NCBI GenBank assembly: GCA_012517315.1
Contig: JAAYVE010000059.1
Coordinates: 62,001-126,000 of the forward strand
Length of the DNA stretch: 64,000 nucleotides
Origin: Deltaproteobacteria bacterium
Lineage (GTDB): Bacteria > Desulfobacterota > Syntrophobacteria > Syntrophobacterales > Syntrophobacteraceae
Direction of reading: 5' to 3'
Positions 50,819-58,588 of this stretch are shown here, in pieces. The notes under the pieces were generated by a model that saw only the letters and a program-made list of their open reading frames with translations, did not search any database and was not told the DNA's origin. The translations under genes were made by a program, and so were the position numbers. Position 1 is the stretch's first letter. Each line of letters opens with the position of its first letter.

Positions 50819-51426
50819 GGCGTCTCAGGGAGAAAGGCGGTGGCCGGTGTCCTTCGCTTGGATGTGATGCCCCGGATGTCCGCAAGGATGTAATCATACG
50901 CTTCCTGCGAAATGATCAACTGCTCGTAGACTTCAATCCCTGCATCCTGAACGGCTTGCTCCCAAAATGCATCCCTTTCGGGCGTTCCCGACTCGTAGAC
51001 GTGTTCGTAATAGATGCGTTTGATACGCGCCGTGGCGATGAGCTTCAGGCAAACATAACAAGGGGCCAGGGTCGTGTAGAGGGTGCCTCCTTCCAGGGAG
51101 ATTCCGTTTCGGGCGGCCTGGGCAATGGCATTGGCCTCGGCGTGGGAGGCGCGGCAGTAATTGTATTTGTCCACGTCCGGAATGCCGTGGACTCGGCGGT
51201 AACAGTACGGCTCGCCGTTCCAGTCCGGTTGATCGATGCAGTGAGGGGCTCCCGGCATGGCTCCGTTGTATCCCGTGGAAAGGATGTGGTTGTGTCTGGT
51301 GATGACGGCTCCAGTCGGCCTGGAATTGCAGGTGGACCGGGAGCTCACGATTTTTGCGATGAGCATGAAGTATTCATGCCAGTTGGGCCGCCTGCGTCTG
51401 GTCGTTGAGGTCATGGGTTCAGGCAT
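50815..51426 (-). CDS. deoxycytidylate deaminase
   Basis: 203 residues. The zinc site is CRASHAEANAI and LAPCYVCLK, preceded by PTGAVI and STGYNGAMPGAPHC, the layout of ComEB/dCMP deaminase. It converts dCMP to dUMP for thymidylate synthesis. The ATG at 51426 has GGAG upstream and overlaps the RACo stop by 8 bp; ATG 51414 is possible. The C-terminal 20 residues are an extension. Confidence 0.92.
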   Translation of the reverse strand: MPEPMTSTTRRRRPNWHEYFMLIAKIVSSRSTCNSRPTGAVITRHNHILSTGYNGAMPGAPHCIDQPDWNGEPYCYRRVHGIPDVDKYNYCRASHAEANAIAQAARNGISLEGGTLYTTLAPCYVCLKLIATARIKRIYYEHVYESGTPERDAFWEQAVQDAGIEVYEQLIISQEAYDYILADIRGITSKRRTPATAFLPETP

Positions 51427-53434
51427 GCTTGCGTCTCCGGGCGATCGCCTTCACAACGGATGGGAAGAGTTCCATCTGTGTGTGAGGAAGAAAGAGGGCC
51501 GCCACGAATTCATTCATGAACTCGGGGCGCACGGAAAGTTCAAAGTAGGTCATCTTTTTTGAAATCTCCTCAGCCCGCCCGAATGCGTCCGTGGAAGTGA
51601 GGGCGAGCCGGGCCCCGGCGAGGGAACTGTTTCCGATGAACTGGATGCGCTCTTGGGGGATGTCGGGGAGGAGTCCGACGAAAATGGCCTTCTCGATGTC
51701 CAAGTGGGCTCCGAAACCTCCTGCCACGTAGACTTTGTCCAAGTCGTTGAAAGACATGCCTAGGCTGTCCAGGAGCACCTTCATGGCAGCCATTACGGCT
51801 CCCTTGCTCTTGATGAGGTTCCCGATGTCATCCTCCGTAAGAATCACCGGTTCTCCGGATTCCGTCTCAGAAGCCTCTGCCGCCACGAACGCGGCCGTAT
51901 CGTCCCGCACCTGAACGCGTGGGTGGTCCATTCGGATGAACCGGCCGCTCTGGTCGATGATATCCTCGGCCACCAGTTCAGCAACAAGGTCGATGAGGCC
52001 CGAACCGCAAATGCCCCTCGGCTTGGCTCTCCCCACAGTTCGGATGCGAACCCTTTCACCTCTGATCTCAGCCTTTTCGATAGCCCCCCGTGTGGCTCGC
52101 ATTCCGCACTGGATGCCGCCCCCCTCGAAGGCGGGTCCCGCCGACGCAGAGCAGCATACGAGCCAATCGCTGTTCCCCACCGCGATTTCCCCGTTGGTGC
52201 CCACATCGATCAGAGCGCTCAATTCCGAACGTTCAGCCATTCCGCAGGCGAGAACCCCCGCCACGATATCGCCTCCCACGTAGCTGCTCACACAGGGCAG
52301 GCAGTGAAGGGTCGCCCGGGGATGAGCCTTCAAGCCGAGTTCCACCGTGTGATAAAGGGGTACGCGATTGGCGGTGGGGATGTAAGGAGCGACCCTGATG
52401 TGGCAGGGTTCCAGGTCAAGAAGGAGATGGGTCATGGTGGTGTTGCCCGCGGCGACGATGCAGGTGATTTCCTCGGTGCGTATGCCCGCCCCCTGGGCAA
52501 GGCGGTTCATGAGCGTGTTGATGGTGGAGATGACCGCCATGTTGAGGGGAGATTGGCCACCGCGGGTGCATGCAAAAATCATCCGGGAGATGACATCCTC
52601 CCCGTACTGGGACTGCCGGTTGTGACTCGCTTCCGTGCCGACGGGCCTGCCCGTGGTGAGGTCCACGAGTTGTGCTGCGATGGTGGTCGTGCCCACGTCC
52701 ACCGCTACTCCAAAGTTTCGCTTGCTGGTGTCGCCGGGCTCGATGGCACGGATGAGGGGGAGGCCGAAGTCCCTCATGTATACGGAAGTGGTGATTCTCC
52801 AGTCGTTTTCCCTCAGGAGACGCGCCAGTCCCCATAGGCACGAGAAATGAGCGCGGGGAGTCAGTTCGTGCATGACTTTGTGAAGCTCACGGTAGATGCG
52901 GTCGAGGTCCGATAGATTGTCATCCAGGGTGGGGGGGGGAAGCTCAAGGTAAACCTTGGTGCAGATGGGACGAAGACCTTCTGGAGGGTGGGCTTCCGCC
53001 CCCTCCTCCAGGGTGCAGGGCGCTTCATAGCAAAGGAAACGCTCGGCTTGGACCTTTTTGCCCAGAGGTTCCAAAGCAGAACGAGGAGAGCCGTCCCTGA
53101 TGAAGGACGCGTCATAGTCCGTGAGAATCTGTTCTCCATCCATCCTGGATTCGGGAGGAATCCACACTTCCACGTTGTCTTTCGTGAGAAAGGTCTGACA
53201 AGCCAGCACATAACCCGCCTCGAGACTCCTCTTGTCCATGAATCCAATCTGCTTACCCGTGGTGCGGACTTTTCCCCGGATGATTCTGACCCGGCAGCTG
53301 CCGCAGACCCCCTGACCTCCACAGAGGTTGGTGATGTCGATTCCCGCCTTCAGGGCCAAGTCCATGAGCCTTTCTCCATCTTGGCCCGAAACGGTGACAT
53401 TGTTTGGGTGGAAGGTCACTTGCGGGTGTGCCAT
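51419..53434 (-). CDS. RACo-like ASKHA-domain corrinoid activation protein
   Basis: 671 residues from the ATG at 53434 (GGGAGAG upstream). The N-terminus is a [2Fe-2S] ferredoxin domain (NLCGGQGVCGSCRV, and a fourth cysteine in LACQTF). A linker (about 100-225) leads to a DUF4445/ASKHA ATPase core: GVAVDVGTTTIAAQLVDL, VAAGNTTMTHLLL, ALIDVGTNGEIAVG, GRAKPRGICGSGLIDL and VYVAGGFGAHLD. RACo uses ATP to re-reduce cob(II)alamin on methyl-transfer proteins. No corrinoid protein or methyltransferase gene is nearby. Confidence 0.9.
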   Translation of the reverse strand: MAHPQVTFHPNNVTVSGQDGERLMDLALKAGIDITNLCGGQGVCGSCRVRIIRGKVRTTGKQIGFMDKRSLEAGYVLACQTFLTKDNVEVWIPPESRMDGEQILTDYDASFIRDGSPRSALEPLGKKVQAERFLCYEAPCTLEEGAEAHPPEGLRPICTKVYLELPPPTLDDNLSDLDRIYRELHKVMHELTPRAHFSCLWGLARLLRENDWRITTSVYMRDFGLPLIRAIEPGDTSKRNFGVAVDVGTTTIAAQLVDLTTGRPVGTEASHNRQSQYGEDVISRMIFACTRGGQSPLNMAVISTINTLMNRLAQGAGIRTEEITCIVAAGNTTMTHLLLDLEPCHIRVAPYIPTANRVPLYHTVELGLKAHPRATLHCLPCVSSYVGGDIVAGVLACGMAERSELSALIDVGTNGEIAVGNSDWLVCCSASAGPAFEGGGIQCGMRATRGAIEKAEIRGERVRIRTVGRAKPRGICGSGLIDLVAELVAEDIIDQSGRFIRMDHPRVQVRDDTAAFVAAEASETESGEPVILTEDDIGNLIKSKGAVMAAMKVLLDSLGMSFNDLDKVYVAGGFGAHLDIEKAIFVGLLPDIPQERIQFIGNSSLAGARLALTSTDAFGRAEEISKKMTYFELSVRPEFMNEFVAALFLPHTQMELFPSVVKAIARRRKHA

Positions 53435-53573
53435 CTGCTCTCTCCCTGTTGCGGGTGGACATCGCAAAAGACGGGCATGGTGGAAATGCCGCCGCAGCAA
53501 CTATTACCCCATTTGACCCTCCTTGACCACACCCAGGTTTTACGCTAAGGTCGCTGGGCTGAAAGGATGGGCC

Positions 53574-54665
53574 ATGCCGGTCGCTGAAAGGACCATCGCT
53601 TACTACATCACGCCGCACGGTTTTGGACACGCAGTGCGGTCCCTGGAGGTCATCCGCCATCTGTTGGCGGCTTCAAAGGACGTGCGGGTCATCGTCGTTT
53701 CCGACATTCCCCACTTTCTCGTTGCCGAGAATGCCGGCACAGAGGTGATCGTGCGCAGAAGACGCCTGGACGTGGGATTGGTTCAGGAAGACAGCCTTCG
53801 CTTCGACGTGGAAGCAAGCCTGGCCGCTTTGGAGGACCTGTTTCGCAATCGAAGCCGGTTGATCCAGGAGGAGGTCGAGTTCCTGCGGAGGGAGCGTGTC
53901 ACCACCGTCGTCTCCGACGTGGCCTACCTCCCCTTTTTTGCCGCCTCCCAATTGGGCATTCCCTCCATCGGCCTGGGAAACTTTTCCTGGGACTGGGTCT
54001 ATGAACACTTTGCGCGAAAAGACCCGCGGTGGAAACCCTTCGTGAAATGGATCCGCGAGGGATACGCACTTTGCGGGCTTTTTCTCCAGTTGCCCATGCA
54101 CTGTGACTGTTCTGTTTTTCCCAAAAGGCTTGAGGTGCCTCTCGTCGCCCGCAAGTCGAGGCGGAGCCGCCGGGAATGCAAGAAGGCCCTGGGCTTGAAC
54201 GAATCGGCGACCGTGCACCTCATCGCCTTCGCACAACTGGAATTTTCTCCCGAGGCGCAGGAGCGCATTGGGCGTATGGATCATTCCGCGTTTCTTTTCA
54301 AAAAGCCCCTTCGCTTATCCATCCCCAACGGAATCAACCTGGATCGCCTTCCAGTTTCTTACCCGGAGGCCATCGCCGCCGCGGACACGGTCATTACGAA
54401 GCCGGGTTACGGTATCGCCGCCGACTGTCTTGCCAACGGAATTCCCATGATTTACACGGACCGCGGCGATTTTCCCGAGGTTCCGTACCTTGTGGAGGCT
54501 ATGGAAAGGCACCTGCCCACGGTTTACATCCCGTTGAATGATTTCCTCCTCGGCAGATGGGAAACGGCTCTGAAACGTTTACAGGAAGAGCCACGCCGTC
54601 TCCCCGCCCTTCCTGCAGACGGTGCGGCCGTATGTGCGCAGGTGATCTCCTCCTTCCCCTCATGA
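53574..54665 (+). CDS. GT-B-like glycosyltransferase family protein
   Basis: 363 residues from the ATG at 53574 (AAAGGAT at 6 nt). TIAYYITPHGFGHAVRSLEVI is the N-terminal signature shared with GT-B enzymes such as MurG-like proteins and the N-terminal part of arabinokinase-like proteins. The C-terminal half has YPEAIAAADTVITKPGYGIAADCLANGIPMIYTDRGDFPE, the nucleotide-sugar side. The donor and acceptor are not known. Divergent from RACo. Confidence 0.85.
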   Translation: MPVAERTIAYYITPHGFGHAVRSLEVIRHLLAASKDVRVIVVSDIPHFLVAENAGTEVIVRRRRLDVGLVQEDSLRFDVEASLAALEDLFRNRSRLIQEEVEFLRRERVTTVVSDVAYLPFFAASQLGIPSIGLGNFSWDWVYEHFARKDPRWKPFVKWIREGYALCGLFLQLPMHCDCSVFPKRLEVPLVARKSRRSRRECKKALGLNESATVHLIAFAQLEFSPEAQERIGRMDHSAFLFKKPLRLSIPNGINLDRLPVSYPEAIAAADTVITKPGYGIAADCLANGIPMIYTDRGDFPEVPYLVEAMERHLPTVYIPLNDFLLGRWETALKRLQEEPRRLPALPADGAAVCAQVISSFPS

Positions 54666-54758
54666 AGACGCCTCCGCGAAGCCCAGGGAAGCAATCAGCG
54701 GTGGATTCCATACTTTGAACACCATGCAGCCCACGAGGCGTCCCTTTGGAAGGAACCC

Positions 54759-55301
54759 ATGAGAAAGACAAGCTGGAAAAGGATTGCGGTGGTTCTTTGG
54801 ACCATCTTCCTGTGCATCGGCTGTGACCAGGCGACCAAGGCCATTGCCCGGGCAGTCCTTCCCCACGGTGGCGTCCACTCCTTCGCAGGAGGTGTGGTGA
54901 AGGTCCGGTACGCGGAGAACAAAGGGGGGGTGCTTGCCTTCGAGTCTTGACTGCCTGAAAGGTGGCGCGGGGGTGTCGTCACCATCGGGGTATCCCTTCT
55001 CCTGGCATTGGTCGTCACTTACGTTCTGCTTGCCTCCTCGCCGAAGCCCATCACCATCCTGTCCCTTTCAATCGCCAGCGGAGGAGCCTTGAGCAATCTT
55101 TTCGACCGGATCTTCTTCGACGGCAACGTCGTGGATTTTCTTCGTCTTGATCTTGGTTTCCTGCGAACGGGCATTTTCAACGCTGCAGATATTGCCATCA
55201 GTGTGGGGCTCTCTCTGTTTGCTTTGACTTCCCTTGGATGGCTTGCCCGGCGTTCTGCCGGCACCTCCGGGAATTCTCGTGGGGAAAGGACGCTCCGATG
55301 A
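54759..55301 (+). pseudogene. lspA: lspA (signal peptidase II) with in-frame TGA
   Basis: 180 residues if the TGA at 54948-54950 is read through, close to normal LspA length. Before it: CDQATKAIARAVLP and VRYAENKGGVLAFES. After it, in the same frame: LPERWRGGVVTIGVSLLLAL, GGALSNLFDRIFFDGNVVDF and FRTGIFNAADIAI-like RTGIFNAADIAIS, holding both catalytic aspartates. A 7-bp stem (54961-54967 / 54977-54983) with a 9-nt loop follows the TGA. The codon could be a nonsense mutation, a sequencing error or selenocysteine. LspA is needed to mature lipoproteins such as Pal, so loss without a second copy would be serious. GGAAGGAA precedes the ATG. Confidence 0.75.
54961..54983 (+). other. hairpin after the lspA TGA, possible SECIS-like element
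   Basis: GGTGGCG pairs with CGTCACC (one G-U pair) around a loop CGGGGGTGT. The stem starts 10 nt after the TGA and the loop begins 17 nt after it, within the usual reach of bacterial SECIS elements, and the loop has GGU. The sequence match to SECIS consensus is weak. Confidence 0.3.
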
Positions 55302-55318: not shown

Positions 55319-56026
55319 CTACGGGGTGGCTCCGCCACAGGGGATGGTCGCCTCTGGGGATCCGTCGGCCGGGATTTCAATTGCACCTGACGGTTCCCTC
55401 AGGAGAAGGGCGCTCACGGGACAGACCTCGACGCACGCCAGGCAGGTTTCGCAAAGGGCGTACATGGCTTCCACGTCTCCGAATGCCGTGATGATGGTGT
55501 CGATTCCCCTCCTGGCGTAAGTGAGGATCGGGCTGCCGTATTGTCGCTGGCAGACATGAACGCACTTCCCGCAGAGGATGCAGCGGGAATGGACGATTTG
55601 CAGGAGAGGATGCTCGATATCCTCCGCCACTTCGCGGTCGATGTGATCGTAGCGGCGGGGGCGGATGCGGACGCCGAAGCGCTTCACGAGTTCCTGCAGG
55701 ATACAGCGTCTGTTGGAGGGGCATGCCTTGCATTTGGCTTCGTGGTTGGAGAGGAGGAGCCTGAGGGACGTCCTTTGAAGACGGAGCAGTTCACTGCTGG
55801 AGGTGTTCACGACCATGTCCGGCTTTGGCTCCACCTTGCACGATACGACGGGCTGGTTCATCCCCTCGATTTCCACGAAACACATCCTGCAGGAACCGGG
55901 CGGGTCCTCCATGTCCTCCAGGTAGCAGAGGTTGGGGATGAAGATGCCATGATCGAGACACCCCTGGAGCAGGCTTTTGCCCTCATCCACGAAGATTTCC
56001 CTTCCGTCCACAACGATTCTGACCAT
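55319..56026 (-). CDS. HoxU/NuoG-type iron-sulfur subunit
   Basis: 235 residues. The [2Fe-2S] domain has CYLEDMEDPPGSCRMCFVEI and VVSC; the next region HEAKCKACPSNRRC is the His-Cys3 site of NuoG/HoxU; two [4Fe-4S] clusters follow in CILCGKCVHVCQ and CETCLACVEVCPVSA. It carries electrons between the flavin subunit and a catalytic partner. It starts 3 bp after the flavin subunit's stop and converges with lspA. Confidence 0.92.
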   Translation of the reverse strand: MVRIVVDGREIFVDEGKSLLQGCLDHGIFIPNLCYLEDMEDPPGSCRMCFVEIEGMNQPVVSCKVEPKPDMVVNTSSSELLRLQRTSLRLLLSNHEAKCKACPSNRRCILQELVKRFGVRIRPRRYDHIDREVAEDIEHPLLQIVHSRCILCGKCVHVCQRQYGSPILTYARRGIDTIITAFGDVEAMYALCETCLACVEVCPVSALLLREPSGAIEIPADGSPEATIPCGGATP

Positions 56027-56029
56027 GAT

Positions 56030-57958
56030 TCACTCTTCCTTGGGGCGTTCAACAACGGGAGCGAGTTGTGGCGGTGAGACTTTCAGGACGGCGTTGTACT
56101 CCGGCGGGCAGGCCGACACACATTCTCCGCATTTGACGCATTTTGCCTGGTCGATGGCCTTCTTTCGGCTGACAGTGGTGAAAATGGCTTCCACCGGGCA
56201 GCTTCCCACGCAGGCATCGCAGCCTCGGGCGCACAGATCCAAGTCTATGTAAAATGCCGTCAGGGCCCTGCATCGCATGGAGGGGCAGCGCTTTTCCGCG
56301 ACGTGTGCCTCGTACTCCTCCGGGAAATACTTCAGGGTGGTGAGGACGGGGTTGGGGGCGGTCTTGCCCAAACCGCACAGGGAGCCCTCCTTGATTTCCT
56401 CGCTGAGTGTCCGAAGCATCTCCATGTCCGTGTCTCTTCCCTCTCCCCGGGTCATGCGGTGGAGGCCGTTCAGCAAATGGAGCGTTCCAATCCTGCAGAA
56501 GGTGCACTTGCCGCAGGATTCCTTTTGTGTGAAGTCGAGAAAATACCGGGTCACGTCCACGATACAGTCGTCTTCATCCATGACAACGATGCCTCCGGAG
56601 CCCATCATGGCTCCAGCTTTCGTGAGGGAGTCGAAGTCGATGGGGGTGTCCAGGAAACTCTCGGGCAGGCATCCGCCGGAGGGACCTCCGATTTGAACCG
56701 CCTTGAAGCGCCGATGATTGGGAACCCCGCCGCAAATGTCGAAAATGAGGGTTCTCAGGGTGGTTCCCATAGCAATCTCCACGAGACCCGGATGGACCAC
56801 CTTGCCCACAACGGAGAAAATAGCGGTGCCGGGACTCGCAGGGCTTCCGATTCCGCTGTACCACCTGGCCCCATGTTTCAGGATATGGGGAATGGACGAG
56901 AGGGTCTTCACGTTGTTGATGACCGTAGGCAGGCTTCGGAATCCCTTCTGGACGGGATAGGGGGGCCGGTGCCGAGGCATTCCCCGCTTTCCTTCCAAGG
57001 ATTCGATGAGGGCGGTTTCTTCACCGCAAACGAAGGCCCCGGACCCTTCGAAGAGTGTGCATTCAAAATCGAGGTCTGTGCCCAGAATGCCCTTTCCCAG
57101 GAGCCCATATTCCACCGCCTGGCGGATGGCCGTCCGCATCCGCTCCACGGCGAGGGGGTACTCGGCCCTCACATAAACGATGCCCCTGTCTGCGCCTATT
57201 GCATACGCCGCAATAACCATTCCCTCAAGAAGCTGATGGGGATTGCTCTCGAGGAGGGTCCGATCCATATAGGCGCCCGGATCCCCTTCGTCCGCGTTGC
57301 AGATGATGAACTTGTGGGATCCTCCTGCGTCCCTGGCCAGGCGCCACTTTCGCCCCGTGGGGAAGCCGGCGCCGCCCCTGCCTCTCAAGCCTGACTGGAT
57401 GATCTCTTCAATGACCGCATCGGGTGAAACCTGGATGGCCTTGAGAAGGCCCGAGTAGCCCCCTCCCGCGAGGTACTCGTCGATTGCCTCGGGGTTGATG
57501 ACACCGCAACGCTCCATCACGACCCTCTTTTCCAGGTGAAACCTGGGAAAATCCGTCACGGCCGGGATGAGATCGTTTTCTTCCATGGCTCCGAGCACGA
57601 ACTCGTAGAGGGGATCTCCCTCCTGGAGGAAGGCCTTCACCAAAGCTTTGGCTTTGCCGGGCGTCACATTGTGGTAGCAGATGGGGGGAAAACCCGGGTT
57701 GTGGATCACCACGAGAGGTTCGGCGTAACAATGCCCGAGGCAGCCCACCGGATTGATGGAAAAATGCAGACCGTTGACGGCGCATGCCTCTTCGAAAGCC
57801 TCTTTCGTCGCCCCCGCCCCCGCAGCGAGACCACAGGTGGCCATACCGATTTCGATGCGGGGAAGCTCCCGATGCTCCATTTCAGCTCGCCGTCGCCTCG
57901 CCCGATCCACGAGTTGCCGATGGCGAACAATCGCCTCATCCACCCCTGCAAGTTTCAT
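56030..57958 (-). CDS. NuoF/HoxF-type NADH-binding flavoprotein
   Basis: 642 residues. Residues about 30-120 are a thioredoxin-like [2Fe-2S] domain (MATCGLAAGAG, PVGCLGHC). The core has GRGGAGFPTGRKW, NADEGDPGAYMDRTLLESNPH (FMN and NADH sites) and the cluster N3 motif SCGKCTFCRIG. A C-terminal ferredoxin (CARGCDACVGSCPVEAI, CVKCGECVSACP) is the addition seen in bifurcating hydrogenase and formate dehydrogenase subunits. It oxidises NADH or reduces NAD. Confidence 0.94.
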   Translation of the reverse strand: MKLAGVDEAIVRHRQLVDRARRRRAEMEHRELPRIEIGMATCGLAAGAGATKEAFEEACAVNGLHFSINPVGCLGHCYAEPLVVIHNPGFPPICYHNVTPGKAKALVKAFLQEGDPLYEFVLGAMEENDLIPAVTDFPRFHLEKRVVMERCGVINPEAIDEYLAGGGYSGLLKAIQVSPDAVIEEIIQSGLRGRGGAGFPTGRKWRLARDAGGSHKFIICNADEGDPGAYMDRTLLESNPHQLLEGMVIAAYAIGADRGIVYVRAEYPLAVERMRTAIRQAVEYGLLGKGILGTDLDFECTLFEGSGAFVCGEETALIESLEGKRGMPRHRPPYPVQKGFRSLPTVINNVKTLSSIPHILKHGARWYSGIGSPASPGTAIFSVVGKVVHPGLVEIAMGTTLRTLIFDICGGVPNHRRFKAVQIGGPSGGCLPESFLDTPIDFDSLTKAGAMMGSGGIVVMDEDDCIVDVTRYFLDFTQKESCGKCTFCRIGTLHLLNGLHRMTRGEGRDTDMEMLRTLSEEIKEGSLCGLGKTAPNPVLTTLKYFPEEYEAHVAEKRCPSMRCRALTAFYIDLDLCARGCDACVGSCPVEAIFTTVSRKKAIDQAKCVKCGECVSACPPEYNAVLKVSPPQLAPVVERPKEE

Positions 57959-58030
57959 GGGCCGCCTCGCGCCACCGTGGAGAAAATAAGACAGGTCATT
58001 GAACGGTATTCACCCTCTCGAGAACCTCCT

Positions 58031-58588
58031 TCAAAGGTTTTCTCCCAGCTCTTTTTCTTCCGAATTTTCAGCCTGCTTCTCCCGTTCCAGGCGCTCCTTT
58101 TCGATCTGAAAGCCCAAAATAATTCCTTCCACTCTGCTGGGTGCCATGTGACCGTGGGTCGCCTCGTCAACGATGGCCACAGGAGCCAGGGCGCAGCAAC
58201 CCACACAGGCTACTCGCTCGATACTGAATTCCCTGTCGGGTGTCGTTTGGCCTTCCCTGATCCCGAGCTTGCGCTCGAAGTTCTCCAGGATGATGTCGCC
58301 GCCCACTACGTGGCAGGCCGTGCCGAGGCAAATTCTGATCTGGTGTCTGCCCGGGGGATGGAACCGAAACTGGTTGTAAAAAGTGGCCACCCCGTAGACT
58401 TCACTCGAGGAAATCTCCAGGTGCTCGGCCACCAGCTTCATGGCCAGTCCCGAAACATAAGAGTGTCTTTTCTGAATGGTCTGAAGAATCGGAATGAGGT
58501 TCTCCCTTCCCTTGGAGAACCCTTGGAGGAGCCCTATGATCTCTTCGCGGCTCTCCTCTTCTTCGGAAACGATGGACGGATGGCTCAT
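58031..58588 (-). CDS. NuoE/HoxE-type [2Fe-2S] subunit
   Basis: 185 residues. Helical N-terminus (LIPILQTIQKRHSYVSG), then the thioredoxin-like [2Fe-2S] fold: VYGVATFYNQF, ICLGTACHVVGGD and ACVGCCALAPVAIVD, with four cysteines. The C-terminus after residue 155 is a charged coiled-coil extension. First gene of the module, 72 bp ahead of the flavin subunit. Confidence 0.92.
   Translation of the reverse strand: MSHPSIVSEEEESREEIIGLLQGFSKGRENLIPILQTIQKRHSYVSGLAMKLVAEHLEISSSEVYGVATFYNQFRFHPPGRHQIRICLGTACHVVGGDIILENFERKLGIREGQTTPDREFSIERVACVGCCALAPVAIVDEATHGHMAPSRVEGIILGFQIEKERLEREKQAENSEEKELGENL

Follow-up and report, generated by a model that had tools for sequence, protein, structure and literature searches.

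Most known selenoproteins are thiol oxidoreductases or handle metals or metalloids, and for the majority of selenoproteins homologues with cysteine in place of selenocysteine (Sec) are numerous. The bacterial examples, FdhA and SelD among others, combine an in-frame UGA, a 3' hairpin with a G early in its loop, the machinery for Sec insertion and a Cys homologue. The gene described here likewise has the UGA, such a hairpin at a fitting distance and the machinery in its genome, and one of its homologues has Cys. In a published model of the bacterial SECIS element, the hairpin has a loop of 3-9 nt, a stem of 4-16 bp, a distance of 16-37 nt from UGA to loop and a minimum free energy (MFE) of -7.5 or lower, and a G is also required within the first two loop positions (PMC13188914). 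LspA, or signal peptidase II, does not figure in a catalogue from 2026 that covers 119 families and subfamilies of prokaryotic selenoproteins (PMC13188914). No link between LspA and selenocysteine was found in the literature searched, the coverage of which was incomplete, and an earlier report elsewhere is possible. A second system of relevance is the selC* tRNA-Cys with its extra selB, which has been described from Syntrophobacterales and Desulfobacterales and can carry cysteine (PMC7609411). As for LspA itself (PF01252; structures 5dir, 9emz and 6ryo), residues Asn53 to Lys63 of the S. aureus enzyme form a flexible extracytoplasmic loop over the substrate pocket (PMC6952399).

The window analysed here is a stretch of 64,000 nucleotides from a member of the Syntrophobacteraceae whose genome comprises 4.43 Mb in 61 contigs. 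At 54759..55301 on the + strand it carries lspA2, a second signal peptidase II gene; of its 180 codons, codon 64 is an in-frame TGA (54948..54950, +). This TGA is the one internal stop of the frame, the next stop being the terminal TGA, and a candidate ribosome-binding site, GGAAGGA, can be read directly from the sequence ggaaggaacccATG at 54748..54754 (+). The Pfam profile Peptidase_A8 (PF01252) spans both halves of the gene across the TGA with 90.7 bits against a cut-off of 25, in agreement with a preliminary description of this DNA in which both halves of LspA lay in one frame split by a single TGA at 54948. We propose that the UGA is decoded as selenocysteine and that lspA2 encodes a functional accessory signal peptidase II, and from the sequence comparisons below we give the two claims jointly a probability of about 0.87.

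By sequence, LspA2 belongs to the same family as the known signal peptidases II. It retains both catalytic aspartates (S. aureus Asp118 and Asp136) along with practically the whole set of 14 conserved LspA residues (S. aureus Asp21 to Asp136). Thirteen of these are invariant across the 11 proteins of the lspA2 subfamily and the remaining one, V124, is nearly so; in the window's protein all are present, as D23, K27, N54, G56, G109, N113, D116, R117, V124, D126, F140, N141, A143 and D144. What sets lspA2 apart from known LspA is that it is a paralogue alongside a canonical copy, that its UGA falls in an extracytoplasmic loop, and that its score of 66.5 bits lies under the NCBIfam lspA equivalog cut-off of 73.95. 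A search of NCBIfam returned ordinary LspA models only. The canonical lspA, intact and scoring 143.6 bits, is found on contig C20 of the same genome and is the second copy for which the preliminary description had advised a search. At column 107 of the subfamily alignment, all lspA2 proteins but the window's, 10 of 11, have a Cys immediately before the conserved Gly-Gly near the active site; the window's has Ser.

Searches covered three overlapping sets, comprising 60 relatives, 56 class genomes and 395 phylum genomes. They define lspA2 as a distinct subfamily with members in 11 genomes, all of one family and counting that of the window (G000). Four more distant LspA proteins, which belong to other families in the phylum, lack the TGA. 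A scan of genome contigs yielded no lspA2 member; its two longest matches (L033 and L034), when read in frame, are LspA without a TGA. Within the subfamily five genes carry the TGA, at codon 64 in G000 and G001 and at codon 63 in G021, G024 and G025. With U standing for TGA, the loop reads FESULPERWRG in G000 and G001, FEULLPERWRG in G021, FEUMLPQRWRG in G024 and FEULLPEMWRG in G025. The homologue in G009 (FEYCLPEGWRG) has Cys, encoded by TGC for TGA, at the exact column of the window gene's TGA. The other sense-codon loops are FESALPRQWRG (G003), FEYYLPEKWHG (G006), FESLLP (G020), FEILLP (G022) and FELLLP (G023), so that aside from the Cys homologue, the two codons specify Ser/Ala, Tyr/Tyr, Ser/Leu, Ile/Leu and Leu/Leu in five of the six sense-codon genes. 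The preliminary description had turned to relatives for the residue at this column: five of the 11 genes have TGA with a hairpin, and of the six with a sense codon and no stable hairpin one has Cys.

The preliminary description also held a recent nonsense change or a sequencing error to be the simpler reading, and the relatives contradict it, as four other genomes have a TGA at the same place. A sequencing or assembly error at 54948 has a vanishingly small probability given that G001, whose gene is separate and 57% identical, has TGA at this very codon and that three further genomes have it at the adjoining one. Nor can the window's TGA be recent, since G000 and G001, although of the same genus, have lspA2 genes that are only 57% identical with synonymous sites near saturation, and both have the TGA. 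In the tree of lspA2 the TGA genes fall into more than one clade; four changes are needed under parsimony, two of them forced by well-supported branches, and one ancestral TGA followed by several losses is possible. The sister genes of G025 and G020, with TGA CTT and TCA CTT respectively, fit a loss by one base.

A further test of the nonsense reading comes from the sequence beyond the TGA. By the Nei-Gojobori method dN is lower than dS both upstream and downstream of the codon (0.35/1.80 upstream and 0.40/1.22 downstream for G000-G001), the ratios being rough because many of the synonymous estimates are saturated. On these estimates, purifying selection is acting on both halves of lspA2. A recent nonsense mutation or a decaying pseudogene, with the lspA on C20 doing the work, gains from the intact canonical copy, which makes lspA2 dispensable in principle. 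Against it stand a TGA common to deeply diverged homologues, dN below dS downstream, a hairpin tied to the TGA and the lack of any further stop in the aligned region of all five TGA genes; we therefore regard decay as very improbable. The purifying selection downstream, together with the complete Sec system and the other TGA-containing selenoprotein genes considered below, likewise counts against the nonsense or error reading. A functional split gene that restarts at TTG 55008 was rejected, as its second half would be without Asn54 and the first helix and the conserved TGA and hairpin would go unexplained.

Turning to the hairpin, the window gene has a predicted bacterial SECIS element, GGUGGCG-CGGGGGUGU-CGUCACC, at 54961..54983 (+), with a 7-bp stem and a 9-nt loop. 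A 10-nt spacer separates it from the TGA, and the loop begins 17 nt past the TGA and starts with CGG, placing a G second. The isolated stem-loop has an energy of -8.1 kcal/mol and the MFE is -10.5. This is the SECIS-like arrangement that the preliminary description had reported, and it agrees with the published bacterial model in every respect. Within the window, about 4% of all TGA triplets are followed by a hairpin of -7.5 kcal/mol or lower and about 7.5% by a stem of at least 7 bp. A single TGA with its hairpin is weak evidence by itself because comparable hairpins are not rare in the window.

It is the recurrence of the two elements that points beyond chance, since TGA and hairpin occur together in five of the 11 genes and are absent together from six. 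When pairing was scored at one fixed alignment position in all 11 lspA2 genes, every TGA gene kept at least six of the seven pairs, with energies from -6.6 to -8.7 kcal/mol. None of the six sense-codon genes has a stable hairpin (-0.6 to +6.9), G023 keeping six of seven pairs at -0.4. As a null, synonymous codons were redrawn by the local usage of each genome, and the observed pairing was matched in 5.0% of redraws for G000, 5.9% for G001, 8.7% for G021, 6.3% for G024 and 43.5% for G025, a product of about 7e-6 on the assumption that the lineages are independent. The isolated stem-loop of G021 falls short of the model's -7.5 limit at -6.6, and when 51 nt of G021 and of G025 are folded, a structure other than the hairpin has the lowest energy. 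Changes in pairing among the hairpins of the five TGA genes are one-sided only (G-C/G-U), with no double compensatory change. Because the in-frame UGA and its hairpin are common to several related bacteria, the UGA very probably stands for selenocysteine.

The window's genome is equipped for this decoding. Its genes include selA, three selB-like ones that score above the curated threshold, tRNA-Sec(UCA) and two selD, one of which has a TGA; the selA, selB and selC genes named as a check in the preliminary description are accordingly present in this genome. Every genome of the lspA2 subfamily has selA. At the U-H site, TGA is the codon in four formate dehydrogenase genes, each with a SECIS-like hairpin behind it whose loop is 18-23 nt distant, and a fifth formate dehydrogenase gene in the window's genome has Cys at that site. 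Of four apparent tRNA-Sec genes, two are real (UCA) and the others were set aside as cross-hits to tRNA-Trp and tRNA-Ser. Global reassignment of TGA is ruled out by its use as the main stop codon, which closes 43 of 55 long open frames in the window. A window scan for other long frames split by TGA proved too unspecific for use. Among the selB-like genes, a further full-length one (L044, C28:2184-4085) scores 277.8 bits, and a short one of about 400 codons (L046, C53:246-1124) matches only about the first 270 model positions. Short genes similar to the latter are found in G003, G006, G021, G023 and G024.

The second UCA tRNA raises the question of which amino acid is inserted. It is encoded on contig C43 (L053, C43:55593-55682) beside an extra selB (L045, C43:53597-55486), and it has an 8-bp acceptor stem, a bulged A in the T stem and A73. 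In this respect the window's genome resembles the selC*/selB system, and the UGA might be read by SelB-type machinery that inserts cysteine by means of this tRNA. In G001 (C599) a selC*-like tRNA is likewise the neighbour of an extra selB, G003 (C208) has a weaker match in a similar position, and the G009 homologue has Cys. At the same threshold, however, no such tRNA was found in the TGA-bearing genomes G021, G024 and G025, which have canonical tRNA-Sec and SelB, and the discriminator base in G000 and G001 is A73 rather than the U73 of tRNA-Cys. Since it was not found in those three genomes at that threshold, selC* is apparently unneeded for this UGA there. For these two reasons selenocysteine is the best reading and cysteine a minor, quite unlikely rival. 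Contig C43 also has, close to the extra selB and the selC*-like tRNA, a formate dehydrogenase alpha gene (L106, C43:49708-52743) whose Sec site holds Cys.

With selenocysteine as the preferred reading, the hairpin just 3' of the UGA would recruit SelB with Sec-tRNA(UCA), and the ribosome would continue past the UGA to complete a 180-residue membrane aspartyl peptidase. The predicted selenocysteine, residue 64, follows the conserved Asn54 by 10 residues and, in an alignment to the Pseudomonas structure (9emz, 5dir), lies opposite a loop serine. By alignment to solved LspA, the residue is predicted to sit in the extracytoplasmic loop over the substrate pocket. It is outside the Asp dyad, and the preliminary description had rightly placed the codon away from known catalytic residues; a direct catalytic role for Sec is unlikely. 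No partner Cys common to all five TGA proteins was seen in the alignment. LspA2 thus differs from the known bacterial selenoproteins in that it is not a thiol oxidoreductase or metal enzyme, its UGA lies outside the catalytic dyad and shifts by one codon, and it has few Cys homologues. Because this loop shuts over the lipobox substrate, Sec would most likely tune substrate handling or render the enzyme responsive to redox state, metals or selenium, and not carry out the cleavage; this is our conjecture.

The residue itself might also matter little. In that case Sec would be inserted, with the UGA and SECIS element serving as a switch that confines production of full-length LspA2 to conditions in which selenium is available. 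Such gating is a sub-case of Sec recoding, and its likelihood overlaps that of the main reading. A Sec in a non-catalytic loop, a codon that shifts by one position and unrelated residues in other lineages would all suit a switch; against this, the one Cys replacement argues for some chemical role and no linked selenium-related gene was seen near lspA2, leaving gating rather unlikely. Sec may thus serve in handling the substrate, in responding to redox state or metals, or in gating expression by selenium, three roles that are not separable here.

As to the surroundings of the gene, two stretches on the - strand (window 55319-58588 and 51419-53500) hold NuoG/HoxU-like, NuoF-like and NuoE-like genes, which are convergent with lspA2, and a nearby gene for an AcsV-like corrinoid activation protein. 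The NuoG-like and NuoF-like genes and a glycosyltransferase-like gene (53523-54665) adjoin lspA2 in G001 as well. Neighbours in common were found only for G000 and G001 and among the close g7 genomes, and genomic or operon context was dropped as a clue to lspA2 function because neighbour sharing is too limited.

If UGA is read as proposed, a peptidase would join the known selenoproteins, with Sec at a site that has no obvious catalytic job. Other non-redox selenoproteins may be hidden in the same manner, since annotation pipelines are expected to call such genes pseudogenes or split ORFs. The subfamily offers a natural series, comprising Sec at codon 63, Sec at codon 64, Cys, Ser, Tyr and Leu, in which the gain, shift and loss of Sec can be asked about. 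It is an even bet that LspA2 is a selenoprotein peptidase in which Sec sets the choice of substrate or renders lipoprotein maturation responsive to redox state, to metals or to the supply of selenium. Were this true, selenium metabolism would be linked to the assembly of the cell envelope.
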